Source of the DNA: Streptomyces sp. B3I8
GTDB lineage: Bacteria; Actinomycetota; Actinomycetes; Streptomycetales; Streptomycetaceae
Reading direction: 5' to 3'
DNA: 64,000 bases
Assembly (NCBI RefSeq): GCF_030816915.1
Contig: NZ_JAUSYN010000002.1
Span: forward strand, 7,391,501-7,455,500
A model generated the notes under the pieces. That model worked only from the letters and a program-made list of their open reading frames with translations. It was not told the origin of the DNA and did not search any database. This document shows positions 12,863 through 47,064 of this stretch, piece after piece. Position 1 is the stretch's first letter. Each line of letters begins with the position of its first letter. The position numbers and the translations under genes are program-made.

Positions 12863-12883
12863 GGTAGACCGTTCGGTCTTGAC
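12863..12883 (+). promoter_or_regulatory. TetR-type box (secY upstream site 1) with -35
   Basis: AGACCGTTCGGTCTTGAC, one mismatch to the window consensus AGAACGTTCGGTCTTGAC. The TTGACA at 12879-12884 can serve as a -35, with GACGAT 18 bases on as a weak -10. Confidence 0.65.
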
Positions 12884-12915
12884 AAGAACGCTTCCCGCGG
12901 TCGACGATGCTGCGA

Positions 12916-12936
12916 GATAGAACGTTTGGTCTTGCC
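12916..12936 (+). promoter_or_regulatory. TetR-type box (secY upstream site 2)
   Basis: AGAACGTTTGGTCTTGCC. Its centre is 53 bp from site 1, and it lies 51 bp before the secY start. The same paired spacing recurs before ohr and both DUF308-like genes. Confidence 0.65.
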
Positions 12937-12986
12937 GGGCGCCGACGATCCACGACGGCGCGTCTGGCAGGGTCGCCGGAGGCACC

Positions 12987-14300
12987 GTGATCGTCGCATT
13001 CGCCCACGCATTCAGGACGCCCGACCTGCGCAGGAAACTGCTCTTCACGCTCGGTGTCGTCGTGGTGTACCGGCTGGGCACCCACGTCCCGCTCCCGGGC
13101 GTCGACTACGGGGCCGTCCAGCGGTGTGTCGACGGAGCCTCCGCCAACCAGGGGCTGCTCGGGCTGGTCAACCTCTTCAGCGGCGGTGCGTTGCTTCAGA
13201 TCACGATCTTCGCCCTGGGCGTCCTGCCCTACATCACCGCCGGCATCATCCTGCAACTGCTGACCGTCGTCGTCCCCCGTCTGGAGACGCTCAAGAAGGA
13301 GGGCCGGGCCGGGAGCGCGAGGATCATCCAGTACACCCGCTATCTGACCGTCGCGCTCGCCGTGCTCCAGGGCACCGGACTGGTGGCGACCGCCCGCAGC
13401 GGAACCCTCTTCTCCGGCTGCGCGGTCGCCTCCGACATCGTCCCGGACAAGGCGATCCTCACCACTGTCACGATGGTCGTCTCCATGACCGCCGGCACAT
13501 GCGTGGTCATGTGGCTCGGTGAACTGATCACCGAGCGCGGCATCGGCAACGGCATGTCGATCCTCATGTTCGTCTCGATCGCCGCCACGACCCCCTCCGC
13601 ACTGTGGGCCATCAAGAAGCAGGGCACCCTCGCCGACGGCTGGATCGCGTTCGGCGGTGTCCTCCTCGTCGGACTGGTCCTGGTGGGCCTCGTGGTCTTC
13701 GTGGAGCAGGCCCAACGCCGCATCCCGGTCCAGTACGCCAAGCGCGTGATCGGCCGCCGTTCCTACGGCGGTGCGTCCACTTACCTACCGCTGAAACTGA
13801 ATCAGGCCGGTGTCGTCCCGGTCATCTTCGCCTCGTCACTTCTCTACCTCCCGGCCCTGATCGCCCAGTTCTCGCACGGCGACTCGGGGTGGAAGACCTG
13901 GATCACCCAGAACCTCACCAAGAGCGATCACCCCGTCTACCTCGTCGCCTACTCCGTACTCATCGTCCTCTTCGCGTTCTTCTACGTCGCGATCACCTTC
14001 GATCCGGACGAGATCGCGACCACCATGAAGCAGCACGGTGGCTTCGTCCCGGGCATCAGGGCCGGACGCCCGACCGCCGAGTACCTGCGCCACACGCTCA
14101 ACCGGATCACCTGGCCGGGCGCGCTGTACCTGGGGCTGATCGCCCTCGTCCCCACCCTCGCGCTGGCCACGAGCGGAACGAGCCAGAACTTCCCGTTCGG
14201 CGGCACCAGCCTCCTGATCATCGTCGGCGTGGGCCTGGACACCGTGAGACAGATCGAGAGCCGGCTCCGGCAACGCCACTACGAGGGCTTCCTCCGCTGA
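12987..14300 (+). CDS. secY: SecY protein translocase channel, stand-alone paralogue
   Basis: 437 residues with ten membrane segments, full SecY length. It starts close to the canonical actinobacterial form (FRTPDLRRKLLFTLGVVVVY). It retains signature stretches such as GGALLQITIFALGVLPYITA, the cytoplasmic loop QAQRRIPVQYAKRVIGRRSY and GIRAGRPTAEYL. The GTG at 12987 follows CCGGAGG. Housekeeping secY normally lies between rplO and adk; here it is alone, with no ribosomal protein, secE or secA gene nearby. This is probably a conditional second copy. Two TetR-type boxes at 12863 and 12916 imply repression that is lifted by a signal shared with ohr and the DUF308-like genes. Confidence 0.93.
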   Translation: MIVAFAHAFRTPDLRRKLLFTLGVVVVYRLGTHVPLPGVDYGAVQRCVDGASANQGLLGLVNLFSGGALLQITIFALGVLPYITAGIILQLLTVVVPRLETLKKEGRAGSARIIQYTRYLTVALAVLQGTGLVATARSGTLFSGCAVASDIVPDKAILTTVTMVVSMTAGTCVVMWLGELITERGIGNGMSILMFVSIAATTPSALWAIKKQGTLADGWIAFGGVLLVGLVLVGLVVFVEQAQRRIPVQYAKRVIGRRSYGGASTYLPLKLNQAGVVPVIFASSLLYLPALIAQFSHGDSGWKTWITQNLTKSDHPVYLVAYSVLIVLFAFFYVAITFDPDEIATTMKQHGGFVPGIRAGRPTAEYLRHTLNRITWPGALYLGLIALVPTLALATSGTSQNFPFGGTSLLIIVGVGLDTVRQIESRLRQRHYEGFLR

Positions 14301-14366
14301 GCGGCCCGCACTTCCCACCCAAGGGCCCTGTGGCGACACGGTGTCCTCGCACATGAGGAGTCACTC

Positions 14367-15377
14367 GTGCACGTCTTTCTCACCGGCGGCAGCGGCTTCG
14401 TCGGCCGGCATCTGATTCGACGACTGCGCGCCGAAGGGCACACCGTCGCCGCGCTGGCCCGCTCCGGTGCGGGCGCGAAGAAGGTCACCGACGCCGGAGC
14501 CCGGCCGGTGCCCGGCGATCTGGCCGAACTCGTCCGGCCGGACGGTTCCCTCCCAGCCTGGCTCGACACCCTGCACCACGTCGACGCCGTCGTGCACGCC
14601 GCGGCCAGAACGGGACCCCGGGGCGACGAAGCGGGCTTCCGGGCCGACAACCAAGAACCGACCGTCGCTCTGCACGCGGCCGCCGTGAAAGCGGAAGTGC
14701 CCCGGTTCGTACTGCTCAGCGCCGCGCATGTGTCCACCGGCACCCAACGCGCCACCGTGGTCGACGAACACACCGACAGCGGCACCCCCGTCACCGCGTA
14801 CCTGCGCACCAAGTTGGCGACCGAGGAGGCGCTGCGCGGCACCGCGTCACAGGCGACCACCCTGCTGATCCTGCGGCCGCCCCTCGTCTGGGGACCGGGG
14901 ATGAACCTCACCGAAATGGCCGCCGTCGCCGCCAGGGGCCGGTTCCTGTGGATCGACGGGGGCCGGCGGGTCATCGACTTCATCCATGTCGACAACCTCG
15001 CCGACGCCGTGCTGCTGACCCTGGAGCACGGCCACCACGGTGTGCCCTACTACGTCACCGACGGCGCCCCGATGCCGGTACGCGACTTCCTCACCGCACT
15101 GCTGGCCACCCGAGGTGTCGACGTCTCCACCGGCCGCAGCCTCCCCTCGCGTGTCGCCGCACCCCTCGCGGTCCTCATGGAAAGCAGGGCCCGCCTGCCG
15201 CGCAGGACCACCACCCCGCCGCTCACCAAGTGGTGGGTCGCGGTCCTGGGCCGCGACCGCGTCTACGACATCAGCGCCGCCCGCACCGTCCTCGGCTACC
15301 GGCCGCGCATCGCATTCGACGACGGCCTCCTGGAGATGACCGCCCTGACCCGCCACTGCCACGCCGAGGCGGGGTGA
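14367..15377 (+). CDS. NAD(P)-dependent epimerase/dehydratase (extended SDR)
   Basis: 336 residues of the extended short-chain dehydrogenase fold, closest in style to 3-beta-hydroxysteroid-dehydrogenase/sugar-epimerase-like proteins. The nucleotide motif TGGSGFVG is at residues 6-13. LLSAAHVSTG and the catalytic TAYLRTK (YxxxK) follow, then FIHVDNLADAVLLTLEHG, typical of this group. The GTG at 14367 is preceded by GAGGAG. It probably oxidises or epimerises a hydroxylated substrate in the cytosol. It lies 66 bp after secY and before an exporter, and co-transcription is possible. Confidence 0.85.
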   Translation: MHVFLTGGSGFVGRHLIRRLRAEGHTVAALARSGAGAKKVTDAGARPVPGDLAELVRPDGSLPAWLDTLHHVDAVVHAAARTGPRGDEAGFRADNQEPTVALHAAAVKAEVPRFVLLSAAHVSTGTQRATVVDEHTDSGTPVTAYLRTKLATEEALRGTASQATTLLILRPPLVWGPGMNLTEMAAVAARGRFLWIDGGRRVIDFIHVDNLADAVLLTLEHGHHGVPYYVTDGAPMPVRDFLTALLATRGVDVSTGRSLPSRVAAPLAVLMESRARLPRRTTTPPLTKWWVAVLGRDRVYDISAARTVLGYRPRIAFDDGLLEMTALTRHCHAEAG

Positions 15378-15504
15378 CGGACCGACGCCGACGCGCCCCG
15401 CGGCCCACCTCCGAGAACCGCCCCGCGGCTCACCTGTGAGGACCGCGCCCGGTGCGCCGCCGGCCACGGCACACCCACCGCACCACATGAAGGAACCACA
15501 CCCC

Positions 15505-17112
15505 ATGCCAACCACCCCCAGCGCGGGTACGGAGTCACCCGCCCCCCACACCGAGGACTACGGCGAGGGCACGATGACCCATGCGCAGATCATGCGCGCC
15601 CTGTCCGGTCTGCTGCTCGGTCTGTTCTGCGCCATCCTGTCCTCCACCGTCGTCACCAACGCGCTGCCGCGCATCATCGGTGACCTCGGCGGCGGCCAGA
15701 GCGCCTACACATGGGTCGTCACCTCGTCCCTCCTCGCGGTCACCGCCTCTACCCCCCTGTGGGGCAAACTCGCCGACCTGTTCAGCAAGAAGATCCTGGT
15801 CCAGTCGGCGCTGGTGATCTTCGTCCTCGGCTCCCTGGTGGCCGGACTCGCGCCGAACCCCGCCACCCTGATCGCCGCGCGGGTCATCCAGGGCCTGGGC
15901 GGCGGCGGCCTCTCGGCGCTGGGACAGGTCGTGCTGGCCGCGATGATCAGCCCTCGTGAACGGGGCCGCTACTCGGGGTACCTGGGCGCCACCTTCGCCG
16001 TGGCCACCGTCGGCGGACCGCTGCTCGGCGGCGTCATCACCGACACCAGTTGGCTCGGCTGGCGCTGGTGCCTGTTCGTCGGTGTCCCCTTCGCCGTCGT
16101 CGCGCTGATAGTGCTGCAGCGCACGCTGAACCTGCCGCTGACCAAGCGTCACGTCAAGGTCGACTGGGCCGGCGCGTTCCTCGTCACCGCCGCCGTGTGC
16201 ACCCTGCTGATCTGGGTCACCTTCGCCGACGACAAGTACGCCTGGCTGTCCTGGCAGACGTACACGCTGCTCGGCGCCGCGCTCGCACTGACGCTCGTCT
16301 TCCTGTACGTGGAGACGAAGGTGAGCGAACCGGTCATCCCGCTGCGCCTGTTCCGCAACCCCACCATCGCCCTCGCCTCCGTCGCCTCCCTGTTCGTCGG
16401 CGTCGCCCTGTTCGCGGGTACCGTCTTCTTCAGCCAGTACTTCCAGTTGGCCCGCGGCGCGTCCCCCACCCTGTCGGGGGTCATGACGATCCCGCTCATC
16501 GGCGGCCTGTTCCTCTCCTCCACCGTCTCCGGCCGGGTCATCACCCGGACCGGTCGATGGAAGGGATGGCTCCTGGCCGGCGGCATCCTGCTCACGGCGG
16601 GGTTGGCCCTGCTCGGCATGCTCCGTCACGACACCCCGTACCTCTACGTGGCCGGCTGCATGGCGCTGGTCGGGCTCGGCGTCGGCATGACCCTGCAGAA
16701 CCTCGTCCTGTGCACGCAGAACCAGGTCTCCACCCGCGACCTCGGCGTCGCGTCCTCGACCGTGACCTTCTTCCGCTCGCTCGGCGGCGCGGTGGGGGTC
16801 TCGGTCCTCGGCTCGATCCTCTCCAGCCGCATCGGCCGGCACGCGATGGAGACCATCGGCGACCTCGGCCCGCAGGACCGGGCGGCCGCCGCGAAGGCTG
16901 CCGGCAGTGGCCGGCTGCCCGACCTCGCCGTGCTGCCCGCCTCCGTTCGCATCTGGCTCGAGGGCGCATACGGCCGGGGCATCGGCGACATCTTCCTGTA
17001 CGCCGCCCCCGTCGCCCTGATCGCCTTCCTGGTGACGTTGTTCATCAAGGAGGTCCCCCTGCGCGCGTCCGACAGCGCGGTGCGGGCGCCGGAGGCGGAG
17101 CAGGCCTCCTGA
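15505..17112 (+). CDS. MFS multidrug exporter, DHA2 (14-TM) family
   Basis: 535 residues with about 14 hydrophobic segments, the EmrB/QacA drug:proton antiporter layout. The family motif region is present (GKLADLFSKKILVQSALVIF, then ARVIQGLGGGGLSALGQVV), as is motif C-like GPLLGGVITD. ATG 15505 is preceded by AAGGA. An in-frame ATG at 15487 has no ribosome site. It is expected to export a hydrophobic toxic compound across the plasma membrane. No dedicated regulator is adjacent on the same side; the epimerase precedes it. Confidence 0.9.
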   Translation: MPTTPSAGTESPAPHTEDYGEGTMTHAQIMRALSGLLLGLFCAILSSTVVTNALPRIIGDLGGGQSAYTWVVTSSLLAVTASTPLWGKLADLFSKKILVQSALVIFVLGSLVAGLAPNPATLIAARVIQGLGGGGLSALGQVVLAAMISPRERGRYSGYLGATFAVATVGGPLLGGVITDTSWLGWRWCLFVGVPFAVVALIVLQRTLNLPLTKRHVKVDWAGAFLVTAAVCTLLIWVTFADDKYAWLSWQTYTLLGAALALTLVFLYVETKVSEPVIPLRLFRNPTIALASVASLFVGVALFAGTVFFSQYFQLARGASPTLSGVMTIPLIGGLFLSSTVSGRVITRTGRWKGWLLAGGILLTAGLALLGMLRHDTPYLYVAGCMALVGLGVGMTLQNLVLCTQNQVSTRDLGVASSTVTFFRSLGGAVGVSVLGSILSSRIGRHAMETIGDLGPQDRAAAAKAAGSGRLPDLAVLPASVRIWLEGAYGRGIGDIFLYAAPVALIAFLVTLFIKEVPLRASDSAVRAPEAEQAS

Positions 17113-17225: not shown

Positions 17226-17894
17226 TTGAACCTGCGCACCCGGACGACGCACCGCGCGGCGACCGTCGGACTCCTGCTGGCCGCCACGGTACTGACCGCC
17301 CCCCAGGCCGTGGCGGCAGGTACGCGCACGAGCGCCGAACCCGCGAGCAGTGCCACCGCGAAACCCCTCGGCAGGCTCGGCCCTCTCACGGCCCTCGTCA
17401 TCGAACGCCTCCTGGTGAGCGACGAGGTGGCGGCGGCGAAATTCGGCACCGACTCACCCGTCGAGGACCCGGTGCGCGAGGCCCAGGTGCTGGAGCAGGT
17501 CCGCGCGCAGGCCGAGGCCGCGGGAGTCGACGCGGACACGGCGGTGGCGTTCTTCCGGGACCAGATCACCGCGAGCAAGGAGGTGCAGCGCGCACTGTTC
17601 GCCCGCTGGACCGCTCACCCCGAAGAAGCCCCCACCACACGCCCCGACCTCGGCGTGATCCGGGTACGCCTCGACCGACTGACCACGGACCTGCTCGCGG
17701 AACTGCGGAACACGGCGGAACTCCGCGACAGGCCGGTCACCTGCTCGGTGCAGCTCGCGCTGGCGGAGGTGTCGGGAGCGGTGCGGGAGCGCCTGGACGC
17801 GCCCCACCGCCGGGCGCTGAGCACGGCGACGAACTCCGTGTGCCGCACCGGTGGGACTGTCAGTCCCGTGCCGCAGGGGACGCCGCGTTCGTGA
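17226..17894 (+). CDS. Secreted AroQ-gamma chorismate mutase
   Basis: About 222 residues: a signal peptide (RAATVGLLLAATVLTAPQ, cleavage near AVAAG) and an all-helical chorismate mutase of the exported Mycobacterium type. Diagnostic features are LVSDEVAAAKFGTDSPVED, AVAFFRDQITASKEVQ and a Cys pair (VTCSVQLA and SVCR) able to form the family's disulfide. It converts chorismate to prephenate outside the cytoplasm; the physiological role of exported forms is unclear. I prefer the TTG at 17226 because GAGG lies eight bases before it. ATG 17184 is in frame but lacks a ribosome site. Its 3' end overlaps the convergent tetR gene by 35 bp. Confidence 0.82.
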   Translation: MNLRTRTTHRAATVGLLLAATVLTAPQAVAAGTRTSAEPASSATAKPLGRLGPLTALVIERLLVSDEVAAAKFGTDSPVEDPVREAQVLEQVRAQAEAAGVDADTAVAFFRDQITASKEVQRALFARWTAHPEEAPTTRPDLGVIRVRLDRLTTDLLAELRNTAELRDRPVTCSVQLALAEVSGAVRERLDAPHRRALSTATNSVCRTGGTVSPVPQGTPRS

Positions 17895-18483
17895 GTTCGG
17901 GGATGGTGCGGGCCTTGATGATGCCTTCGACGCCGTGGAGGAAGGTGTCGGAGATCAGCTTCGGGTCGAAGAGGCAGCCGGCCGCCATCGCGCCGTCGCG
18001 GAGCATCACGAAGTGACGGCCCGCGGCCTCGGCGGGCTTGTCGCCGGTTCGGGCCAGCAGTTCGGTGACCGTGTTGAGGAACCACTGCCGGTGGGCCAGG
18101 ACGGCCTGGTGGATCGGGTGCGTGGGGTCGGAGTACTCGGCGGCCGCGTTGAGGAAGGCGCAGCCGCGGAACCCGGCGGACCGGATCCCGTCGGTGATCG
18201 CCTTGGCCACGGCCCGCACCTGGTCGGTCGGGGACGCACCGCTCGCCCGAGCGGCGTCGACCTGTCCCCGGATGGCCTGGTCGGCCTGGTCCAGATAGGC
18301 CAGGACGAGGTCTTCCTTGCTGGCGAAGTGCCGGTAGAGGGTGGCCCGGGTCACCTTGGCCTCGGCGACGATCCGGTCGATGCCGACGGAGTGGATCCCC
18401 TCCGCGTAGAAGATCCGGGTCGCGGTGTTGAGCAACCGGGTCCGTGCCTCGGACACGGTGCCGCCTTCAGTACTCCGACTCAT
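17860..18483 (-). CDS. TetR-family regulator, paralogue A
   Basis: 207 residues. The DNA-binding domain runs from about residue 11 to 60 (LLNTATRIFYAEGIHSVGID, then KVTRATLYRHFASKEDLVLA). The helix-turn-helix is identical to paralogue B at 19069-19677, and long stretches of the ligand domain match as well. A TetR-type box sits about 20 bp upstream of the ATG (18503-18523), so it probably represses itself. The ribosome site is poorly spaced, and TACCGT seven bases before the ATG suggests a leaderless start. Likely candidate for binding the shared boxes in this window. Confidence 0.87.
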   Translation of the reverse strand: MSRSTEGGTVSEARTRLLNTATRIFYAEGIHSVGIDRIVAEAKVTRATLYRHFASKEDLVLAYLDQADQAIRGQVDAARASGASPTDQVRAVAKAITDGIRSAGFRGCAFLNAAAEYSDPTHPIHQAVLAHRQWFLNTVTELLARTGDKPAEAAGRHFVMLRDGAMAAGCLFDPKLISDTFLHGVEGIIKARTIPELTNAASPAARD

Positions 18484-18502
18484 GCCTCCCACGGTACCAA
18501 AC

Positions 18503-18523
18503 GGTAGAACGTTCAGTCTTGAG
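18503..18523 (+). promoter_or_regulatory. TetR-type box upstream of tetR A
   Basis: AGAACGTTCAGTCTTGAG. A single copy in this gap, just upstream of the minus-strand tetR A start. Confidence 0.65.
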
Positions 18524-19068: not shown

Positions 19069-19677
19069 TCAAACCTTGCGCGGGGCGAGTTCGGGGACGG
19101 CACGGGCCCTGATGATGCCTTCGACGCCGTGGAGGAAGGTGTCGGAGATCAGCTTCGGGTCGAAGAGGCAGCCGGCCGCCATCGCGCCGTCGCGGAGCAT
19201 CACGAAGTGACGGCCCGCGGCCTCGGCGGGCTTGTCGCCGGTTCGGGCCAGCAGTTCGGTGACCGTGTCGAGGAACCACTGCCGGTGGGCCAGGACGGCC
19301 TGGTGGATCGGGTGCGTGGGGTCGGAGTACTCGGCGGCCGCGTTGAGGAAGGCGCAGCCGCGGAACCCGGCGGACCGGATGCCCTGGGTGATGGACGTGG
19401 CCACGGCCCGCACCTGGTCGGCCGGGGCGGGGGCGTCGGCCAGGGCGGCGCCCACCTGTCCCCGGACGGCCTGGTCGGCCTGCTGCAGGTAGGCGAGGAC
19501 GAGGTCTTCCTTGCTGGCGAAGTGCCGGTAGAGGGTGGCCCGGGTCACCTTGGCCTCGGCGACGATCCGGTCGATGCCGACGGAGTGGATCCCCTCCGCG
19601 TAGAAGATCCGGGTTGCCGTGTTGAGCAGCCGCGTCCGGGCCTCGGACACGGCGGCACCTTCAATGCTCCGACTCAT
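19069..19677 (-). CDS. TetR-family regulator, paralogue B
   Basis: 202 residues, a close duplicate of the regulator at 17860-18483. The helix-turn-helix is identical; differences cluster in one linker (about residues 65-95) and at the C-terminus. DNA identity is near-perfect over long blocks, for example 19112-19272 against 17920-18080, which indicates recent duplication or gene conversion. A TetR-type box lies just upstream (19701-19720). Because the recognition helix is the same, A and B should bind the same sites but may respond to different ligands. Confidence 0.87.
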   Translation of the reverse strand: MSRSIEGAAVSEARTRLLNTATRIFYAEGIHSVGIDRIVAEAKVTRATLYRHFASKEDLVLAYLQQADQAVRGQVGAALADAPAPADQVRAVATSITQGIRSAGFRGCAFLNAAAEYSDPTHPIHQAVLAHRQWFLDTVTELLARTGDKPAEAAGRHFVMLRDGAMAAGCLFDPKLISDTFLHGVEGIIRARAVPELAPRKV

Positions 19678-19800: not shown

Positions 19801-20229
19801 TCAGGCCACCGTCACGTCGAGGGTGACCGGGAGGTTGCCGCGGGTGGCGTTGGAGTACGGGCACATCGCGTGGGCCGCCTCCACGAGCTTGTCCGCCGTC
19901 TCCTGCTCGACGCCGGACAGTTCGACGCGCAGGACGGCGCTGAGGCCGAAGCCGCCCTCGGGAGTCTTCTGAACACCCACCTCGGCGACGACGGTGGAGT
20001 CGGAGATCTCGGTCCGCTGCTGAGCCGCTACGGCCTTGAGTGCGGAGTGGAAGCACGAGGCCCAGCCGGCCGCGAACAACTGTTCGGGATTGGTCGCGCC
20101 GCCGGGGCCGCCCATCTCCTTCGGGATCGCCAGGGTGAGGTCGAGCAGTCCGTCATTGGTCCGGGCGCGGCCCCCCGACCTGCCGTCGCCGGTGGACGTG
20201 GCGATGCCTCTGTACGGGATGTCGGTCAC
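19801..20229 (-). CDS. ohr: Organic hydroperoxide resistance protein (Ohr/OsmC family)
   Basis: 142 residues, full Ohr length. It carries both redox Cys residues, Cys59 in GWASCFHSAL and Cys123 in HAMCPYSNATRGN. Ohr proteins reduce organic hydroperoxides with lipoyl-protein electrons in the cytosol. The GTG at 20229 follows GGAGAG. Ohr is usually controlled by the MarR-type repressor OhrR. No such gene is visible here; instead two TetR-type boxes (20273 and 20325) flank a TTGACG/CACACT promoter, and a TetR gene lies on the other side. This suggests an atypical peroxide or electrophile circuit. Confidence 0.9.
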   Translation of the reverse strand: MTDIPYRGIATSTGDGRSGGRARTNDGLLDLTLAIPKEMGGPGGATNPEQLFAAGWASCFHSALKAVAAQQRTEISDSTVVAEVGVQKTPEGGFGLSAVLRVELSGVEQETADKLVEAAHAMCPYSNATRGNLPVTLDVTVA

Positions 20230-20272
20230 TTCTCTCTCCTCGGATCGGAGGGCCGTGGTGGCCCTCGACAAA

Positions 20273-20470: not shown

Positions 20471-21103
20471 ATGGCGAGGGTTTCAGGTTCGGCGTCGGCT
20501 GGTGCCGGCTTGAGCAGCCGCGAGGTCATCTTGAACGCGGCTCGTTCGCTCATCGGTGAAAAGGGCTACGACGGCATGGCCATCTCGGACCTGTCGGCGC
20601 AGTCGGGGCTCCCGCCCAGCTCGATCTACTACCACTTCGGCAACAAGTTCGGCGTGCTGGCGGCGCTGCTCGAGCGCACCTTCGAGGAACTCCACGCCCT
20701 GTTCCCCAATCCGTCCTCGTTCGACGAACTGGCACCGTTCGAGCGCCTGGAGGCATGGTTCTCGGCTGCCTGCGGCTCCCTCGACCGGCGCCCCGACTAC
20801 CTGCGTCTGCTGGTCGCCGTCAGCGTCGGCCCGCACAAGGATGCCGAGGCCGTGCAGCGGATCGTGCGTCGCATCCGGGACTACGCCCACAAGTCGTGGG
20901 TGGACGCCCTGACCCCGATATTCGTGCCGGACGGCGGCGACGAGGACGCGCAAGCGCTCGTCCAGGAGCTGGCGGTCCTCGGGCGGGCCCTGACGGACGG
21001 CCTGTCGGTGACCAACAGCTTCGACAACGTGGCCTACAGCTCCCATGTCGCCCCGTTCCTCTCGATGGTCCGCGGCCTGGCGGCGCAGCGCGGAGCGGCG
21101 TAG
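20471..21103 (+). CDS. TetR-family regulator divergent from ohr
   Basis: 210 residues. The helix-turn-helix (LNAARSLIGEKGYDGMAISD, then LPPSSIYYHFGNKFGVL) and ligand domain are typical of TetR. The recognition helix differs from that of paralogues A and B, so it may recognise another site. ATG 20471 gives the normal N-terminus; no strong ribosome site precedes it. It shares its upstream region with ohr, where the two boxes lie 132-198 bp from its start. It may regulate ohr or the downstream catabolic genes; I cannot tell which. Confidence 0.85.
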   Translation: MARVSGSASAGAGLSSREVILNAARSLIGEKGYDGMAISDLSAQSGLPPSSIYYHFGNKFGVLAALLERTFEELHALFPNPSSFDELAPFERLEAWFSAACGSLDRRPDYLRLLVAVSVGPHKDAEAVQRIVRRIRDYAHKSWVDALTPIFVPDGGDEDAQALVQELAVLGRALTDGLSVTNSFDNVAYSSHVAPFLSMVRGLAAQRGAA

Positions 21104-21174
21104 CGCGGAGTGGCGTGGCGGGGCGGGGCGGGTCGTAGCGCGGCCTGACACGGTCGGCCGACCGCGAAGTTGCG

Positions 21175-21218
21175 GCAGAACGTTCGGTCTTGACGGAGGG
21201 GTGTGGCGACCCTAGGCT
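21175..21218 (+). promoter_or_regulatory. TetR-type box joined to a strong promoter
   Basis: AGAACGTTCGGTCTTGAC overlaps TTGACG (21190-21195), followed by exactly 17 bases and TAGGCT (21213-21218). This is the best promoter of the set, and it points toward the small ORF at 21311. I see no good second box at +52. Confidence 0.7.
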
Positions 21219-21310: not shown

Positions 21311-21523
21311 ATGCCTCAATGGGCTGTCACCATCCCGACGCTCACCGCTCAAGGGACGTTCGGGACGCATGTCTTCATCGTCACCGCCGACCGCCCCGAA
21401 GAGGCCTGCGGCCATGCCGTGGCCAGGGCGGACACGCCGGCGTCGCGGCGCCATCGCCGCGACGCGACCCTGCGGCTCGCGGCCCTGACCGTCGCCGAGA
21501 TAACTCCCCGGTGGGGCATGTAG
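21311..21523 (+). CDS. Small uncharacterised protein (70 aa)
   Basis: Frame starting MPQWAVTIPTLTAQGTFGTH and rich in Ala/Arg/Thr toward the end. The ATG is preceded by CAGGAGA at a good distance, and it is the first such start after the box-linked promoter at 21190-21218. No domain recognised. The N-terminal half looks like a beta-rich strand pattern also seen in short actinomycete orphans. It could be a truncated gene; the promoter and ribosome site favour expression. Confidence 0.5.
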   Translation: MPQWAVTIPTLTAQGTFGTHVFIVTADRPEEACGHAVARADTPASRRHRRDATLRLAALTVAEITPRWGM

Positions 21524-21771: not shown

Positions 21772-22554
21772 GTGGCGGACACATCGGAGAATGTCGCCCG
21801 TACCGGCATCGGACCCGTTCTCGTCCTGCTGCACGGGGGAGGTCCGGGCGTCGACGCCGAGAGCAACTGGGCGAGCGTGCGCTCGCGGCTCTCGGACGAG
21901 TTCCGCTGCCTGGCCCCGGATCTCCTCGGGTTCGGCGCCCGGATCGAAGGGCCGGCCGGAATACGGGGGCCGCGCGCCTGGGCGCTGGCGCGGGCACGGC
22001 AGGTCCTGGACCTCCTCGACCGCGAGGGACTGGAACGCGTACACCTCCTCGGCAACTCCACCGCCGGCGGAGCCGCGGCACTGGCGCTCCTGTCCCTGGC
22101 ACCCGACCGCGTCGGTCGGGCGGTCGTCATGGGAGGTGCGGGAACCGGACCGCCGCCGCGGGTCGTTCCCTTCTACGACGACCCGACCGAGAACTCGATG
22201 CGCGCCACCCTCGGGCGGCTGGTCGCCGACGAGAGCGCCCACCGCGCGCTCCTCGACGCCCTCACCGCCGTCCGGCTGCGCCAGGCGCTGCGCCCCGGAG
22301 CGGAGCCGGCGTTCCGGTCGATGTTCGCCGACGTCGCGGGCGGTCCCCCTCCCGTCGATCTCACGAAGCTCGCCAATCCGGTGCTCGCCCTGCACGGCGC
22401 CCGCGACCGGGTCTCACCGGTCGAGGTCTCCGAGCGCCTTGTCGATGCCCTGCCCGACGCCCGCCTGGAGGTGGTGGCGGGGGCGGGCCACTGGATCCAT
22501 GTCGATCGGCCGGACGCCTTCTGCGGCCTGGTAGGAGAGTTCCTGAGCGCATGA
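21772..22554 (+). CDS. Alpha/beta hydrolase, meta-cleavage product hydrolase-like
   Basis: 260 residues. The oxyanion region is LLHGGGPGVDAESNW. The nucleophile Ser lies in GNSTAGG, where relatives have GNSxGG. The Asp is in LHGARDRVSP and the His in GAGHWIHVD. This is the MhpC/BphD/HsaD layout: hydrolysis of a C-C bond in ring-fission products. The inserted Ala in the elbow (GNSTAGG) is unusual. The start codon is GTG. Its stop overlaps the next gene by ATGA. First gene of a probable four-gene operon (to 30103), with a shared operator upstream. A second hydrolase at 32530 is more canonical, so this one may act on a different substrate. Confidence 0.85.
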   Translation: MADTSENVARTGIGPVLVLLHGGGPGVDAESNWASVRSRLSDEFRCLAPDLLGFGARIEGPAGIRGPRAWALARARQVLDLLDREGLERVHLLGNSTAGGAAALALLSLAPDRVGRAVVMGGAGTGPPPRVVPFYDDPTENSMRATLGRLVADESAHRALLDALTAVRLRQALRPGAEPAFRSMFADVAGGPPPVDLTKLANPVLALHGARDRVSPVEVSERLVDALPDARLEVVAGAGHWIHVDRPDAFCGLVGEFLSA

Positions 22555-24182
22555 CGAAAGCAACCAGCAACAGCGAGGACCGTGTCCCGGTCCTGGTCGT
22601 CGGTGCCGGGCCCGCCGGGCTGACCCTCGCCATCGACCTGGCCCGGCGCGGCGTGCGGTGCCATGTAGTGGAGGCGGCCGAGGAACGGGCCGTCAACCCC
22701 CGGTGCAACACCACCTCCGCACGGTCCATGGAGATCTTCCGCAGACTCGGAGTGGCCGACGACGTCCGGCGTGCCGGGCTCCCCGAGAACCACCCCACCA
22801 CCATCCAGTACCGGACGACCCTGACCGGTGAGGAGATCTTCCGCATCGACCTGCCGTCGGCCCGCGACGTGCTGGACGGGGAGGGAAAGGAGGACTGGCC
22901 GACCCCGGAGCCGCAGCACCGGATCTCGCAGCTCTACCTCGAGCCGATCCTGGAGGAGTACGCGCGCCGGCTCCCCGGGCTCACCCTGGAGCGGGGCACC
23001 CGCCTGGTCGGGTTCGAGCAGGACGACGACCATGTCGAGGCGGTCGTGGAGAGTGCCGGGGAGCGCCGCACCCTGCGGTGTGCCTACGTGGTCGGCTGCG
23101 ACGGCGCCCACAGCACCGTGCGGCGTCGACTCGGCATCCGCTACGAGGGCGTCGACGCCCTCCAGAAGTTCGTCTCCACCTACCTCCGCTCGCCCGAGCT
23201 CGGGCGGCTGGCCGCACGGGACCGGGCGTGGACGTACTGGACCTACGGCCGTCGGATCTCCTCCCTCATCGCCATCGACGGTGACACGCGGTGGCTGCAC
23301 CACGTGGCCTTCGCCCCCGACCACGACACCGAGGCCGAGGACCCCGAGAAGCTGCTGCGGGAGGCGGTCGGCGCATCCGTCGCGCACGAGGTGCTCGGCG
23401 TGGTGCGCTGGACCGGACGCCGGCTGGTCGCCCAGCGGTATCGCACCGGGCGCGTGTTCCTGGCCGGGGATGCCGCCCACATCTGGATCCCCGTCGGGGG
23501 GTTCGGCATGAACGCCGGTATCCAGGACGCGGCGGCACTGGGCTGGATGCTGGCGGCGGTCCATCACGGGTGGGCCGCACCGGAGGTACTGGACGCGTAC
23601 GAGCGGGAGCGCAGGCCGGTGGGCGAGCAGTTCGCCGCTGCGGTGGGGGCGGCGGCGGACAAGGCCTTCGCGGAGTTCTCGCCGGACATCCATCTGCCCG
23701 GTCCCGAGGGCGAGCGTGCCCGCGCGGAGTTCGCCGCCCGGCTCGCCGCCTCGGAGCCGCAGCGCTACTCGCCCGACGGCTTCAGCTTCGGCTACCACTA
23801 CGCGGACTCGCCCCTCGTGGTCGGGGGCGAGGAACAGGCCGCGATCACCATGGGCGACCACCTCCGGCGGGCACAGCCGGGGTTCCGGCTGCCGCACGTC
23901 TGGCTCGACGACGAGCGTTCCGTGCTCGATGTGCTCGGTCCCGGCTTCACCCTGCTGCGGACCGACCCGGGCGTCGGCGTGACGTCGTGGACCTCGGCGG
24001 CCGACCGCCTCGGCATCCCGCTCGCCGTCGTCGACCTGCCGGCACCCCGGCCCGACCACTACCCCACCGAGCTGCTGCTCGTACGCCCCGACCAGCACGT
24101 CGCCTGGATGGGCGGGCCGCAGGCCCGTCCCGAGGAACTCCTGCGGACAGTCACCGGGCGGGCCGCCGCCCCTCAGCGGTAG
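22551..24182 (+). CDS. FAD-dependent aromatic ring hydroxylase (MhpA/PheA-type)
   Basis: 543 residues of the class A flavoprotein monooxygenase family. The FAD-binding motif GAGPAG is at about residues 18-23. The DG motif is in GCDGAHSTVRRRLG, and the GD motif is LAGDAAHIWIPVGGFGMNAG. A thioredoxin-like C-terminal part follows, as in phenol hydroxylase and MhpA. Such enzymes use NAD(P)H and O2 to add an ortho hydroxyl to a phenolic ring, giving a catechol for extradiol cleavage. Translationally coupled (4-bp overlap) to the preceding hydrolase. Confidence 0.9.
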   Translation: MTKATSNSEDRVPVLVVGAGPAGLTLAIDLARRGVRCHVVEAAEERAVNPRCNTTSARSMEIFRRLGVADDVRRAGLPENHPTTIQYRTTLTGEEIFRIDLPSARDVLDGEGKEDWPTPEPQHRISQLYLEPILEEYARRLPGLTLERGTRLVGFEQDDDHVEAVVESAGERRTLRCAYVVGCDGAHSTVRRRLGIRYEGVDALQKFVSTYLRSPELGRLAARDRAWTYWTYGRRISSLIAIDGDTRWLHHVAFAPDHDTEAEDPEKLLREAVGASVAHEVLGVVRWTGRRLVAQRYRTGRVFLAGDAAHIWIPVGGFGMNAGIQDAAALGWMLAAVHHGWAAPEVLDAYERERRPVGEQFAAAVGAAADKAFAEFSPDIHLPGPEGERARAEFAARLAASEPQRYSPDGFSFGYHYADSPLVVGGEEQAAITMGDHLRRAQPGFRLPHVWLDDERSVLDVLGPGFTLLRTDPGVGVTSWTSAADRLGIPLAVVDLPAPRPDHYPTELLLVRPDQHVAWMGGPQARPEELLRTVTGRAAAPQR

Positions 24183-24202: not shown

Positions 24203-26305
24203 ATGTCATACGCACTGGGCATCGACGTCGGTGGCACGTTCACCGACGCGGTCGCCTCCGACGGCGCCGGCCGGATCGTGTCGGCCAAGACACCGACGAC
24301 GCCGCCGCACCGTGAGGTCGGTGTCATGCGCGCGATCGAGGACATCGCGGGCGAGCTGGGCATCGACGTCGGCGAACTGCTCTCGCGGACCGACTACATC
24401 GCCCACGGCACGACCGCCTCGATCAACGCCCTGGTCCAGGGCCAGGTGGCCGACGTGGGGCTCATCGCCACGAAGGGACACCGCGACGCCATCTACATCA
24501 TGAACGCCGAGGGCCGCACCCTCGGCCGGTCGGCCCACGAGATCCAGGACACCCTCCGGCAGCGCAAACCCGCACCGCTGATCCCGAAGTACCGGGCCCT
24601 CGAAGTCACCGAGCGCGTCGACCACGCCGGGAAGATCCTGGTCCCCCTCGACGAGGACGAGGTCCGCGAGGTCACGCGGTCCCTCGTCGACCAGGGCGTC
24701 GAGGCGATCGCGGTCTGCCTGCTGTGGTCGTTCAAGAACGACGCGCACGAACAACGCGTCCGCGAGCTGATCCACGAGATCGCCCCGGACCTGTACGTCA
24801 CCCTCTCGTCCGAGGTCAGCCCGCGCATCCGCGAGTTCGCGAGAACCTCCACCACGATCATGAACGCCCAGGTGGGCCCGCGGCTGCGCACCTATCTCCT
24901 GCCGCTGCAGAAGCAGTTGGAGGAGGGCGGCCTCAAGGGGCCCCTGCTGGTCATGCAGAGCGAGGGCGGCACCATCACCGCCGACCGCGCACCGGAACAC
25001 GCCATCACCACGGTCGGTTCCGTCCTGTCCGGCGGCGTCATCGGCGGCATGCGCCTGGCCGGGCAACTGGGGCATCGCAACGTCATCACCACCGACGTCG
25101 GCGGCACCACCTTCCTCGCCGGGCTCATCGTCGACGGAGAGCCGGTCATGGCACCGGGCTCCGTCGTCAACCAGTTCCCCATCAACGCGGCGACCATCCA
25201 CGTGCACACCATCGGCTCCGGCGGCGGGGCACTCGCCTCGGTGGACGCCGGCGGGAACCTGCGCCTGGGTCCGCGAAGCGCCGAGGCCGTCCCCGGCCCC
25301 GCCTGCTACGGCAACGGGGGCACCCACCCGACGAACACCGACGCCAACCTGGTCCTCGGCATCCTCAGCCCGCACGGTCTGCTCGGCGGCCGGAAACCGC
25401 TGCGAATGGACCTGGCACGGGAGGCGATCCGCACCCACGTGGCCGAGCCGCTCGGCCTCACCGTGGAAGAAGCCGCCGTCGCCATCCACGAGGTGCAGAA
25501 CGCCCAGGCGGGCGACCTGCTGCGCCGGGCCGTCGTGCAGGCCGGCTACGACCCCCGCGACTTCGTCGTCTACGCCTTCGGCGGTGCCGGGCCCGCCCAC
25601 TGCGCCGGCTACTGCCAGGATCTCGGGGTCAGCGAGGTCGTCGTCCCCCTCGGCCCCGTCGCCTCCGCCTTCTCGGCCTACGGACTCGCCGCCTCGGACG
25701 TCATCATGAGCGCCGAACTCTCCGACCCCTCCTCCTTCCCGGTCGACCACACGGTCCTCGAAGCGCACTACGCCCGTCTCGAAGCCGATCTGTGGCGCGC
25801 GCTCGACCGGCAGCAGGTGACGTTCCAGGACGTCACGCTGCAACGGGAGATCGACCTGCGCTACTCGATGCAGGTCACCGAACTCTCGACGGCCGTACCG
25901 GACACCGAGTTCACCGAGCACACCGGTGCCGAGATTCTCCGGCGCTTCGAGGAGCGCTACGAACGCGTCAACGGCAGCGGCGCCGGCTACCGCGAGGCCG
26001 GTGTGCAGGCGATCACCTACCGCGTGCGGGCCAAGGCCGGTCTCGGCTTCCCCGTGACACTGCCGGTCGCGCCCGTGGCCGACGGCCCCGACCCGGCCGA
26101 GGCCCTCCTCGGGGAACGCGACGTCTGCCTCGACTCACGGACCGGCTATGTGCCCACCCCCGTCTACGACTACGCCCGGCTCCGGGCCGGCCACGAGCTC
26201 GTCGGACCGGCGATCGTCGATGTCCCGACCACGGTGGTCGTGGTCCCCGCCGGGGTCACCGGCCGCGTCGACCACCTCGGCAACCTCGTGCTGCGCTACC
26301 AGTGA
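24203..26305 (+). CDS. Hydantoinase A/oxoprolinase-family subunit (ketone-carboxylase type)
   Basis: 700 residues of the HyuA superfamily. The ATPase-fold start ALGIDVGGTFTDAVASD and HGTTASINALVQG are followed by TTDVGGTTFLAGLIVDG and FGGAGPAHCAGYCQDLGVSE. The family includes N-methylhydantoinase, 5-oxoprolinase and the ATP-dependent acetone and acetophenone carboxylases. The ATG follows AGGAGA. It forms a complex with the HyuB-type subunit 11 bp downstream. The partner's acetone-carboxylase-gamma-like tail favours a ketone carboxylase over a hydantoinase. The specific substrate is inference. Confidence 0.88.
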   Translation: MSYALGIDVGGTFTDAVASDGAGRIVSAKTPTTPPHREVGVMRAIEDIAGELGIDVGELLSRTDYIAHGTTASINALVQGQVADVGLIATKGHRDAIYIMNAEGRTLGRSAHEIQDTLRQRKPAPLIPKYRALEVTERVDHAGKILVPLDEDEVREVTRSLVDQGVEAIAVCLLWSFKNDAHEQRVRELIHEIAPDLYVTLSSEVSPRIREFARTSTTIMNAQVGPRLRTYLLPLQKQLEEGGLKGPLLVMQSEGGTITADRAPEHAITTVGSVLSGGVIGGMRLAGQLGHRNVITTDVGGTTFLAGLIVDGEPVMAPGSVVNQFPINAATIHVHTIGSGGGALASVDAGGNLRLGPRSAEAVPGPACYGNGGTHPTNTDANLVLGILSPHGLLGGRKPLRMDLAREAIRTHVAEPLGLTVEEAAVAIHEVQNAQAGDLLRRAVVQAGYDPRDFVVYAFGGAGPAHCAGYCQDLGVSEVVVPLGPVASAFSAYGLAASDVIMSAELSDPSSFPVDHTVLEAHYARLEADLWRALDRQQVTFQDVTLQREIDLRYSMQVTELSTAVPDTEFTEHTGAEILRRFEERYERVNGSGAGYREAGVQAITYRVRAKAGLGFPVTLPVAPVADGPDPAEALLGERDVCLDSRTGYVPTPVYDYARLRAGHELVGPAIVDVPTTVVVVPAGVTGRVDHLGNLVLRYQ

Positions 26306-26316
26306 GGACAGCTCCC

Positions 26317-30267: not shown

Positions 30268-30274
30268 GGACCAA

Positions 30275-30415: not shown

Positions 30416-30973
30416 GTGACCACCGTTGACACTCCCGCCGCCGGAAGCATCGCTCCGGCTCTGCGCCGGCTGTACTTCGTGCGGTTCGCCTTCGCCGTCG
30501 TCTGGGCGGCCCTGGTGTTCGCCACCAAGTCCGAACTCGGCGCGTTCGGCGTCGCCCTGGTCGTCGTCTACCCGCTCTTCGACGTCGCCGCAGCGGTGTG
30601 GGACGCCCGCTCGTCCGACACCAACGAGCAGGTCCGCAGCCTCCAGGTGAACATGGCCATCAGCCTCGTCGCCGCCGTGGGCCTCGCCGTCGCCGGCGCC
30701 TCCGGTGTGCCGGCGGTCCTGCGGGTGTGGGGAGCCTGGGCGATCGTCTCGGGAGTCGTCCAGCTCATCGTCGGCGTCGGGCGCCGCGCGATGGGGGGCC
30801 AGTGGCCGATGATCCTCAGCGGCGGCATCTCCGTACTGGCCGGCGGCAACTTCGTGGCGAGCGCCTCCGGGTCGGACCCGAAGCTCAGCGGTGTGGCCGG
30901 CTACGCCGTTCTCGGCGGCATCTTCTTCCTCGTCTCGGCGCTGCGTCTCGGCCGCTCCCGCAAGGAAGGCTGA
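30416..30973 (+). CDS. DUF308/HdeD-like membrane protein, paralogue 1
   Basis: 185 residues with about five or six hydrophobic segments (FVRFAFAVVWAALVFAT, then GVALVVVYPLFDVAAAV and ILSGGISVLAGGNFVASAS). Very similar to the protein at 47174-47755, and both sit behind paired TetR-type boxes. HdeD-type proteins are poorly understood membrane proteins linked to acid or envelope stress. The GTG at 30416 follows GAAAGGA. Its stop precedes the flavoprotein start by one base, so the two are probably co-expressed. Assignment to DUF308 is by topology and pattern, not by search. Confidence 0.7.
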   Translation: MTTVDTPAAGSIAPALRRLYFVRFAFAVVWAALVFATKSELGAFGVALVVVYPLFDVAAAVWDARSSDTNEQVRSLQVNMAISLVAAVGLAVAGASGVPAVLRVWGAWAIVSGVVQLIVGVGRRAMGGQWPMILSGGISVLAGGNFVASASGSDPKLSGVAGYAVLGGIFFLVSALRLGRSRKEG

Positions 30974-37235: not shown

Positions 37236-39473
<2,238 letters not shown>

Positions 39474-45936: not shown

Positions 45937-45948
45937 AAGCTGGTTCCC

Positions 45949-46530: not shown

Positions 46531-46559
46531 CCCGCACGCTCGAAGGGCCGCTCAACGAC

Positions 46560-46940
46560 ACCCGCACGCGCGAAGGGCCGCGCATCCGCACCCACCGGCT
46601 CCTCGCCGAGGTGGCCGACGCGATGTCCGCCGGCCCGGCCGAGATCGAGCCCGCCGAGTGCTGGGGTGTCGCGGTGCCGGCCGACCTGGAACTGCTCGGC
46701 CTCCTGGCGGGACAGGGCTGTGTCGGGGTGTCGCTGCGCGATGCCGAGGTGGTCGAGGGGTGGAAGAAGACGTACCTGCTGGTGGAGGAGCGCGGCATCG
46801 ATGAGTTGTCGCCCCCCGTCCGGCTGCAGGGACGAGCGTCGCGCGGTGACGATCCGTGCGTTCGACGACTTGGCCGAGTTCGGGAGGGAGAACGGCGCGG
46901 AGGGGCGACCGCCCTCCGACCCGCGCCCGTAGACCTCGGC
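46560..46940 (+). pseudogene. Frameshifted hypothetical ORF
   Basis: A frame with good codon bias reads LLAEVADAMSAGPAEIEPAE, then GCVGVSLRDAEVVEGWKKTY and VEERGIDELSPPVRLQ. It changes frame near 46825 to continue DERRAVTIRAFDDLAEFGRE. The two halves fit one protein broken by a single frameshift. I do not recognise the family. No start codon or ribosome site is convincing, and the 5' end runs into duplicated tetR 3' sequence. Confidence 0.45.
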
Positions 46941-46996
46941 AGAGGGCGCACTCCGCAACGCCGGTAAAGGCGCGGTAGGCACCGTAAGCCTGACAG

Positions 46997-47040
46997 GGAG
47001 AACGTTCTGTCTTGACAAGGAGGGGCGGGCCCGTGATGCT
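46997..47040 (+). promoter_or_regulatory. TetR-type box and promoter for DUF308-like paralogue 2
   Basis: AGAACGTTCTGTCTTGAC overlapping TTGACA (47012-47017), then 17 bases and GATGCT (47035-47040). Confidence 0.72.
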
Positions 47041-47042
47041 GA

Positions 47043-47064
47043 GTCAAGACAGAACGTTCAGTAC
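47043..47064 (-). promoter_or_regulatory. TetR-type box (second site, inverted)
   Basis: GTCAAGACAGAACGTTCAGT; on the minus strand it reads GAACGTTCTGTCTTGAC. Its centre is 52 bp from the first box. Confidence 0.7.

Follow-up and report, generated by a model that had tools for sequence, protein, structure and literature searches.

A putative TetR-type operator shared by detoxification gene rows and a second secY gene in Streptomyces sp. B3I8

The window, a 64,000-nucleotide stretch of the Streptomyces sp. B3I8 genome, had been said in the earlier note to carry eleven TetR-type boxes. All eleven were found, each at most about three bases from where it had been placed. Sequence analysis also bore out that these predicted operators precede secY, two tetR paralogues, ohr, a 70-aa ORF and two DUF308-like genes. 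The boxes, the promoter geometry, the tetR-box linkage, their co-occurrence among genomes and the conserved targets can be read from the sequences. I consider it probable (about 60%) that the two TetR paralogues, TetR1 and TetR2, are autoregulated repressors acting on the boxes, and that a phenolic/quinone-type or oxidant signal releases them, co-inducing a detoxification set and a second SecY (SecY2).

Operator boxes and promoter layout

The boxes in the window are as follows (scores are those of a palindromic matrix built from tetR-centred loci).

12859..12882, +, box 1 of the secY2 promoter, 21.4 bits
12912..12935, +, box 2 of the secY2 promoter, 28.4 bits, 53 bp from box 1
18499..18522, no strand assigned, box upstream of tetR1, 29.1 bits
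19697..19720, no strand assigned, box upstream of tetR2, 22.6 bits
20268..20291, no strand assigned, box in the ohr-tetR3 interval, 33.6 bits
20321..20344, no strand assigned, box in the ohr-tetR3 interval, 28.8 bits, 53 bp from its partner at 20268
21170..21193, +, box upstream of orf70, 29.1 bits
30219..30242, +, box 1 of the DUF308a row, 34.1 bits, a TTGACA -35 overlapping the box end
30271..30294, +, box 2 of the DUF308a row, 28.7 bits, 52 bp from box 1
46992..47015, +, box 1 of the DUF308b row, 30.7 bits
47044..47067, +, box 2 of the DUF308b row, 30.2 bits, 52 bp from box 1

The predicted operator is a palindrome, approximately cgAGrcaGAACGTTCtgyCTcg, which spans 24 bp in box coordinates. 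With at most one mismatch, AGAACGTTC has 22 strand-matches in the window versus 6.9 (sd 2.8) in shuffled sequences, and none of the 100 shuffles reached 22. With at most three mismatches, GAACGTTCNGTCTTGAC has 10 matches versus 0.5; the eleventh site (19704) was missed because its arm is too distant from the consensus. In 1.54 Mb of tetR-centred loci, the matrix gave 200 matches of at least 18 bits versus none for the reversed control. A chance motif is ruled out by the shuffles and the empty reversed-matrix control. One core site (position 5175 of locus L020) scores 22.3 bits inside a coding ORF, and thus the matrix is imperfectly specific.

The box had been described as a two-part motif. Its palindromic core held up; the GTCTTGAC arm turned out to be the -35 of the adjacent promoter, outside the longer palindrome, and is missing at three of the eleven sites (19704, 20275 and 30278). 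The palindrome matrix and the -35 position rule out GTCTTGAC as a part of the operator. Usually, two boxes about 52 bp apart flank one promoter. TTGAC, or one of three accepted variants, lies at the box end in 118 of 127 distinct pairs, and 114 of these 118 share one orientation, with one fixed offset per strand. When the -10 was scored as the best of five spacers, position 6 was T in 96% of 81 promoters versus 42% of 643 control TTGACs scored alike.

It had also been claimed that the boxes are purely intergenic. The sites do lie between genes or at their 5′ ends, but ORFs called by a simple gene caller overlap those at 12866, 20328, 21177, 30226/30278, 46999 and 47051. Most of these ORFs are weakly coding (score 8-11) or are 5′-extended reading frames, while a minus-strand ORF (46482-47018) across the site 46999 has a moderate coding score. 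Overall, 38 of 215 boxes are inside coding calls, versus a coding share of 71%, and 11 of the 20 such boxes listed are directly upstream of a tetR gene. Since the caller relies on simple codon phase, some starts and small ORFs are uncertain.

The regulon had been called dispersed. In this genome it is local. The full motif with at most one mismatch occurs at eight places, all in C2:7,404,366-7,457,826, a single 54-kb stretch of 7.98 Mb. This island lies in a chromosome arm, 61-114 kb from the end of a 7.518 Mb contig. The bare 9-mer AGAACGTTC has 12 positions inside the island and 14 in the rest of the 7.98 Mb, both strands of one position counting as one. Thus, the full-motif and 9-mer scans rule out a genome-wide dispersed regulon in this strain. 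The degenerate palindrome with at most one mismatch has one of its eight places outside the island (C1:188730, with a broken core); at three mismatches it is no longer specific (89 places versus 34 in the control). Three further boxes were found just past the window, at genome positions 7456207, 7457809 and 7457853, which brings the total to 14. They lie upstream of genes for an Asp/Glu racemase and a Methyltransf_19 protein.

Candidate repressors and the genes behind the boxes

Three TetR-type proteins are encoded among the boxes.

17860..18492, -, tetR1, candidate repressor, PF00440 1.5e-15, with a box just upstream
19069..19677, -, tetR2, candidate repressor, PF00440 1.7e-15
20471..21103, +, tetR3, of another TetR subfamily, possibly a target, PF00440 4.9e-12

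TetR1 and TetR2 are 88% identical. Their TetR_N helix-turn-helix domains score 57.1 and 56.9 bits, respectively (cutoff 24), and TetR_C_13 scores 27.6 bits in TetR1 and 25.2 bits in TetR2 (cutoff 27). No NCBIfam model among those listed reached its cutoff. The nearest solved relative of TetR2 is PDB 3g7r (E 4.7e-90), deposited as 'Putative transcriptional regulator', which I take to be S. coelicolor SCO4454. In 78 of 79 relatives of TetR1/TetR2, a box lies 35-66 bp upstream of the start of the tetR match; the locus of the sole exception is cut by a contig end. In a sample of 150 genomes including this one, the strict motif was found in 17/17 genomes having a TetR relative of at least 63% identity, a cutoff picked after the list was seen, versus 2/133 others (Fisher 1.6e-20). 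When all 23 genomes with a TetR match were counted, the figures were 17/23 versus 2/127 (1.5e-15). Two cysteines are conserved in 83/83 box-adjacent TetRs, which is weak evidence because 60 other residues are equally conserved.

These sequence relationships indicate that the regulator of the boxes is almost certainly the paralogous pair TetR1/TetR2. Of the three TetRs that had been proposed as binders, only those at 17860 and 19069 stand as good candidates. TetR3 (20471) is a poor one, because its likeness is limited to the DNA-binding region (25% identity to TetR1 over 69 residues); with box co-occurrence following TetR1/TetR2 relatives, it is unlikely to be the regulator.

The other boxed genes and gene rows in the window are as follows.

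19801..20244 (longest ORF start 20271), -, ohr, organic hydroperoxide reductase, TIGR03561 164.4 bits (cutoff 88.85)
21311..21523, +, orf70, small protein, no known domain in Pfam and NCBIfam searches
21772..22554, +, alpha/beta hydrolase of the orf70 row, PF12697 3.8e-22
22551..24182, +, FAD aromatic-ring hydroxylase, PF01494 7.5e-85, PF21274 1.5e-11
24206..26305, +, hydantoinase/oxoprolinase A-type subunit, PF01968 3.4e-73
26302..28641, +, hydantoinase B/carboxylase-type subunit, PF02538 2.6e-126
28679..30103, +, aldehyde dehydrogenase, PF00171 1.3e-155 (for 28586-30103)
30371..30973 (start maybe ~30416), +, DUF308a, DUF308-like membrane protein, PF03729 E 0.0014, below cutoff
30978..32414, +, FAD pyridine-nucleotide-disulphide oxidoreductase with CxxxxC, PF07992 2.1e-45; 0 of 25 NCBIfam models listed reaches its cutoff
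32530..33354, +, meta-cleavage C-C hydrolase-like protein, HsaD/BphD models below cutoff
33359..34225, +, extradiol dioxygenase-like protein, PF00903 8.6e-25, BphC/HsaC-type models below cutoff
34222..35022, +, SDR dehydrogenase, last of the DUF308a row, PF13561 2.7e-43
47174..47755, +, DUF308b, 70% identical to DUF308a, ORF open from 47012, start taken from the alignment
47840..49486, +, membrane-anchored molybdopterin oxidoreductase (sulfite oxidase/MsrP superfamily), PF00174 3e-40
49568..50128, +, Lipoprotein_15 secreted repeat protein, PF03640 5.1e-25

Aromatic-catabolic gene rows, which the earlier note had missed, thus lie behind two boxed promoters, those of the orf70 row and the DUF308a row. 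The DUF308a structure model has six helices at low confidence (mean pLDDT 56) and is too poor for a fold search. The window ohr has tetR2 and tetR3 as neighbours, with no MarR-family regulator adjacent. A second Ohr gene of the same genome (54% identical) has no boxes and is beside a divergent ORF read as MarR-like.

The link between the operator and secY, tetR, ohr, orf70 and DUF308 recurs in other species. DUF308, Ohr, orf70, Methyltransf_19, Oxidored_molyb, Lipoprotein_15, MFS and SecY2 genes were found behind boxes elsewhere, orf70 being called behind a box in three other species. The common unit combines tetR with DUF308. The regulon of some species has been enlarged by ohr, orf70, a methyltransferase, molybdo-oxidoreductases, efflux pumps, aromatic-catabolic rows and egtA; an EgtA-type gene lies behind a box in two other species. 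In 57 of 80 sets the stretch read contained only two boxes, and the inducer of the core therefore need not be what the expanded regulon handles. Some targets have no obvious stress role: the racemase and Methyltransf_19 genes here, and terpene synthase, chorismate mutase-type, polyketide-synthase-like and P450-like genes elsewhere. Because many of these kinds of genes are boxed in other species, this looks like a real stress-response network, and apparently an undescribed one. The earlier note knew of no such regulon, and no description was found in the open-licence PMC literature, where searches on DUF308-TetR, TetR-ohr/ergothioneine, secY self-resistance and TetR aromatic regulons returned nothing on the system.

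The second SecY

In the secY2 row, neither of the two genes that follow secY2 is secA2.

12987..14300, +, secY2, second SecY translocon subunit (437 aa), PF00344 E 3e-109, TIGR00967
14367..15377, +, NAD-dependent epimerase/reductase, gene 2 after secY2, PF01370 4.7e-28
15436..17112, +, DHA2/EmrB-type MFS efflux pump, gene 3 after secY2, PF07690 3.9e-43; TIGR00711 212.9 bits, slightly below the cutoff of 230.2

SecY2 is 78% identical to the other SecY of the same genome and passes the SecY equivalog TIGR00967 (457.6 bits versus a cutoff of 253.6). A Firmicutes-type accessory SecY was rejected (TIGR02920, 159.6 versus 249.6; NF009082, 169.8 versus 353). The gene falls in a SecY2 clade of 21 rows (SH-aLRT 99). 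All six clade members whose DNA was read have boxes at the gene or gene row. Boxes were found at none of 45 other chromosomal secY loci, all outside the clade, nor at the housekeeping secY of this genome, nor at four second secY genes on Streptomyces plasmids, also outside the 21-row clade.

Three methionines that are invariant or almost so in housekeeping SecY are replaced in SecY2 (M63L, M80L and M232L/V/I), which makes three of ten conserved Met columns (nominal P 0.007). The six box-bearing SecY2 proteins have 6-7 Met versus 10-14 in housekeeping SecY; for the whole clade of 21 rows the count is 6-10 and the ranges touch, with the start Met included for 13 SecY2-clade rows and not for the others. 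The residue counts left out L185, L186, L191, L192 and the four plasmid copies. The depletion is no more than suggestive because the idea is post hoc and 20 residues were tested, Met among them; SecY2 is also poorer in Asn, Glu and Lys, and Cys depletion is absent (2-4 Cys in both groups). From the three lost Met, SecY2 is perhaps, speculatively, oxidation-hardened. It is doubtful, though conceivable, that an old duplication under purifying selection, with stress-repressor operators and lost Met, provides an oxidation-hardened translocon swapped in under chemical stress. If so, protein export would be protected against oxidation through an exchange of the channel, a strategy for which no other example is known to me. 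The regulon here also has MsrP-superfamily molybdo-oxidoreductases, and related regulons have ergothioneine synthesis.

Proposed switch, alternatives and known systems

That the boxes mediate repression rather than activation is my inference, as are the kind of inducer and the function of SecY2. Before the signal, dimers of TetR1/TetR2 (3g7r family) would occupy boxes over the -35 and the start region of the promoters, and the occupied boxes, usually two about 52 bp apart, would obstruct sigma-70-type RNA polymerase. The repressor may be released by a toxic phenolic/quinone-type compound or by the resulting oxidant stress. Enzymes that hydroxylate and cleave aromatic rings, an efflux pump, a disulphide/FAD reductase and organic-hydroperoxide reductase would then be co-produced, along with the envelope molybdo-oxidoreductase, DUF308 membrane proteins and the second SecY, which probably joins or replaces housekeeping SecY in SecYEG. 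De-repression by such a signal is suggested by the gene content.

The TetRs might instead sense a specific small molecule with no tie to oxidative stress, in self-resistance or specialised metabolism, the pump and the spare SecY being resistance determinants. Target duplication is typically recognised by an extra copy of a housekeeping protein, as the spare SecY might be, and a DHA2-type pump is in the secY2 row; boxes also precede a terpene synthase in S. apricus and, as read from sequence, P450-like and polyketide-synthase-like ORFs in S. canus. However, detoxification is indicated by Ohr, egtA, the disulphide reductase and the ring-cleavage genes, tetR-DUF308 forms the common core, and no biosynthetic cluster was noticed among translations from part of the window. 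I regard this alternative as rather unlikely. That the TetR is mainly an activator, or a dual regulator, at the boxed promoters is quite improbable: a box lying immediately before the -35, as single-box promoters have, could be compatible with activation, but repression fits the pairs of boxes that flank a good -35/-10 core, where the second covers the start region, and tetR lies directly behind a box as in autorepressed TetRs. There is very little chance that TetR3 or another TetR binds the boxes and TetR1/TetR2 are merely targets. TetR3 also adjoins a box pair, but the boxes track TetR1/TetR2 relatives in the genome and locus counts given above, and TetR3-like genes occur in three of nine fetched loci with at least four boxes, none directly behind a box. 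Those three are 87% (L054), 68% (L112) and 35% (L106) identical to TetR3. A mobile repeat or chance promoter motif with no common regulator can practically be dismissed: the boxes do cluster in one chromosome arm, but the palindrome is conserved while the flanks differ, box positions relative to -35/-10 and tetR starts are fixed in many species, and the reversed control is empty.

For many Streptomyces TetR regulators, no targets are known. Here, one widespread TetR subfamily with a solved structure gains a predicted operator, a layout for its promoters and a set of targets across several species. One proposed switch would connect efflux and a second SecY with peroxide defence and the breakdown of aromatic compounds, and the reason why some bacteria keep a spare SecY becomes directly testable.

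TetR1/TetR2 resemble TetR autorepressors and 3g7r in subfamily (the E-value given above), TetR_N and a box just upstream of their own genes, whereas the regulon here is a large local cluster; no paper naming SCO4454 or 3G7R was found in the open-licence PMC literature. MsrPQ and RclA are bacterial hypochlorite defences. Similarly, the boxed rows encode an RclA/MerA-like FAD oxidoreductase and a molybdo-oxidoreductase whose Pfam family is that of MsrP, both with predicted functions; no NCBIfam equivalog among those listed scored above its cutoff. The quinone-response regulons of MhqR, QsrR and YodB in Firmicutes are controlled by thiol- or electrophile-responsive MarR/DUF24 repressors. As in these, ring-cleavage dioxygenase, hydrolase and reductase genes lie behind one operator type, the ring-cleavage and detoxification genes being behind the boxes 21182 and 30231/30283. 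In contrast, the candidate repressor here is a TetR, and the set adds efflux, ohr and secY2. In Streptomyces, the MarR-family OhrR is reported to control the Ohr peroxidase (PMC6034001), whereas ohr here is behind TetR boxes with no MarR regulator beside it. 'A second set of secA2/secY2 genes in several species' of Streptomyces has been described, and the relevant part of that source names no regulator (PMC5001237). As in accessory SecA2/SecY2 systems, a second secY exists here beside the housekeeping copy, but the SecY found here clears the housekeeping-SecY cutoff by a wide margin and falls short of those for accessory SecY2.

Operator boxes and promoter layout

The eleven near-identical sites reported in the earlier note were recovered at the same coordinates, to within about 3 bases, and they far exceed chance (22 strand-matches versus 6.9 expected; none of 100 shuffles reached that number). 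A symmetric 24-bp matrix derived from 42 distinct boxes (predicted palindromic operators) has a consensus of roughly cgAGrcaGAACGTTCtgyCTcg. At 14 bits or more, exactly the eleven sites and no others were found in the window, which spans C2:7391501-7455500 of a genome whose closest relatives point to Streptomyces. Scanning of the flanking DNA revealed three further boxes, all in L015, and none in a further 55 kb (L016, L017 and L018). Loci centred on TetR2 relatives, 1.54 Mb in total, gave 200 matches to the matrix at a threshold of 18 bits; their reversed sequence gave none. The matrix scans covered the window, its flanks and these loci, and genome-wide specificity was judged by pattern searches. 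The regulon had been thought to be dispersed; in fact, the full motif with up to one mismatch is confined to a single 54-kb stretch of the genome (7.98 Mb, two contigs), lying 61-114 kb from a contig end and hereafter called the island.

The boxes are mostly paired. Counted over the window set and the 79 fetched loci, 86 of 96 neighbouring pairs are spaced by 49-57 bp, most commonly by 52. TTGAC, or one of three accepted variants, lies at one fixed offset per strand and in a single orientation in 114 of 127 distinct pairs; in the rest, TTGAC occurs in both orientations (4), at another offset (1), or is absent (8). A -10-like hexamer was found 17-18 bp away in 75 of 81 cases (best of five spacers), and its sixth position is T in 96% of the 81 versus 42% of 643 box-distant TTGACs under identical scoring. 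The fixed offset and the hexamer indicate that the 'GTCTTGAC' arm, previously taken as part of the motif, is actually the -35 region. A box pair probably brackets a sigma-70-type core promoter, the layout expected under repression.

Candidate repressors and the common tetR-DUF308 unit

The proteins concerned are as follows.
17860: TetR1, candidate repressor
19069: TetR2, candidate repressor, 88% identical to TetR1
20471: TetR3, of another subfamily, its likeness to TetR1 limited to the DNA-binding region

Of 80 sets, 76 have a TetR1/TetR2-family gene called beside a box, and a box lies 35-66 bp upstream of the match to a TetR1/TetR2 relative at 78 of 79 loci; the sole exception, L070, begins at a contig end. 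Among 150 genomes, the source genome included, the strict motif was found in all 17 that carry a relative at 63% identity or more (best matches 67-100%) and in 2 of the 133 without one (G003 and G024), this cutoff having been set after the list was inspected. The strict motif is absent from the six genomes with weaker TetR matches (51-59% identity). All 83 box-adjacent family members share C108 and C170, along with 60 other residues. Two TetR relatives, from two genomes, have one TGA within the matched stretch (G061:C62:78419-78997 and G005:C1:3966973-3967539).

Of 23 motif-bearing loci of relatives, 14 have their boxes between a tetR and a DUF308-like gene; a DUF308 gene was called behind the boxes in 54 of 80 sets. 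Exactly two boxes are present in 57 of the 80 sets; the window set and nine of the fetched loci have at least four. A degenerate palindrome with up to one mismatch occurs at 40 places in S. canus, 25 in S. dioscori and 17 in S. apricus; its control gave 0 in all 12 genomes searched. S. canus 299MFChir4.1 (L195-L218), with 40 boxes, has a much larger set than the window, and some of its boxes precede P450-like and polyketide-synthase-like ORFs.

Boxed genes of the island and of other species

Two boxed rows of the island concern aromatic catabolism.
Behind box 21182, same strand: orf70, alpha/beta hydrolase, FAD ring hydroxylase, hydantoinase A- and B-type subunits, aldehyde dehydrogenase
Behind boxes 30231/30283: DUF308a, FAD disulphide oxidoreductase, C-C hydrolase-like, extradiol-dioxygenase-like, SDR

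Judged by spacing, each row may be co-transcribed; the gap between orf70 and the next gene is 248 bp. Relatives of these genes are also boxed in S. aurantiacus (G032 C27), S. spinosisporus (L054) and Actinacidiphila acididurans (L112). The matrix found no box at the lower meta-cleavage genes (40047-42968), which include a 4-hydroxy-2-oxovalerate aldolase (above cutoff) and an FAA_hydrolase-type gene; the adjoining ORF at 42962 reads IclR-like. Also inside the island and lacking an upstream box is a MIP-family channel gene, with a catalase-peroxidase-type gene (PF00141) behind it (36454-39473).

Boxed genes were examined in nine other genomes with uneven coverage: 40/40 places in S. canus, 16/17 in S. 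apricus, 6/6 in A. acididurans, the first 7 of the 25 in S. dioscori, and chiefly the surroundings of tetR in the remainder.

Table. Genes standing first behind a box; counts are species sets out of 10 (source genome included) unless stated otherwise.
tetR family: 10/10
DUF308: 7/10
Ohr: 7/10
Alpha/beta hydrolase: 5/10
orf70: 4/10
FAD_binding_4/BBE oxidase: 4/10
Methyltransf_19: 4/10
Molybdo-oxidoreductase: 3 other species; later gene of a boxed row in the window
Lipoprotein_15: 3 other species; later gene of a boxed row in the window
DHA2 efflux: 3 other species; later gene of a boxed row in the window

An EgtA-type gene is boxed in two species: S. canus, whose protein exceeds the TIGR03444 cutoff (474.9 versus 370.8 bits), and S. 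dioscori. Many further called neighbours (clusters 16-66) are single-species, and some are spurious ORFs. In S. apricus, a terpene synthase gene (PF19086; L226 3323-4426) has four boxes upstream and a boxed ohr opposite. In S. dioscori (L052 900-3010), a cytochrome b-type-looking frame comes after a boxed molybdo-oxidoreductase-like gene, and a nearby EgtB-like frame is broken by stops.

SecY2 and the possible signal

12987..14300, + strand: SecY2, the second SecY of this genome

The other of the two SecYs (C2:4179308) is 78% identical to SecY2, and no box was found within the 7.5 kb examined around its gene. A tree of 72 SecYs has a 21-row branch (SH-aLRT 99) that unites all six box-bearing copies (this strain, S. 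canus, S. dioscori, S. apricus, Streptomyces sp. RB17 and A. acididurans) and excludes the 45 other chromosomal rows; the remaining 15 rows of the branch are database proteins, examined as protein sequences. Five of the six have boxes immediately upstream of secY2, RB17 having a single one; the boxes of A. acididurans lie before a BBE-type oxidase gene, and secY2 is the next gene of the same row. No box was found at the 45 other chromosomal secY loci (up to 1.5 kb on each side) or within 6 kb of the four plasmid copies. These four are second secY genes carried by linear plasmids of Streptomyces (L161-L164), and they fall outside the SecY2 clade. The secY2 copy is rare: 6 of 392 Streptomyces genomes, this one included, matched at a score exceeding nearly all housekeeping SecYs, and some of the six are housekeeping copies.

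The secY2 gene is intact, and its dN/dS of 0.07-0.28 (simple method) indicates constraint. Ten columns fully separate SecY2 from 43 housekeeping SecYs, two of them being M to L, and a third Met (232) is substituted in 21 of 21 clade rows. Because of these Met differences, SecY2 could be imagined as an oxidation-hardened translocon used in chemical stress, an unlikely reading; the Met-loss statistics are weak (nominal P 0.007, post hoc).

The combined targets seem to fit a phenolic/quinone or oxidant signal, since they comprise Ohr, a CxxxxC FAD oxidoreductase, molybdo-oxidoreductases, efflux, ring cleavage and, in relatives, EgtA. The island Ohr exceeds the TIGR03561 cutoff, and the molybdo-oxidoreductases of the boxed rows belong to the sulphite-oxidase/MsrP superfamily. 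Another Ohr gene of this genome adjoins a divergent ORF that reads MarR-like; thus, the boxed ohr appears to be a second ohr under different control. On the other hand, the common core is tetR-DUF308, and some targets appear unrelated to stress.

No publication on the operator, the TetR subfamily or the regulon was found, although reports may exist beyond the literature searched. The second secY of some Streptomyces has already been published (PMC5001237), being described, in the part of that article consulted, without a TetR1/TetR2-type regulator.
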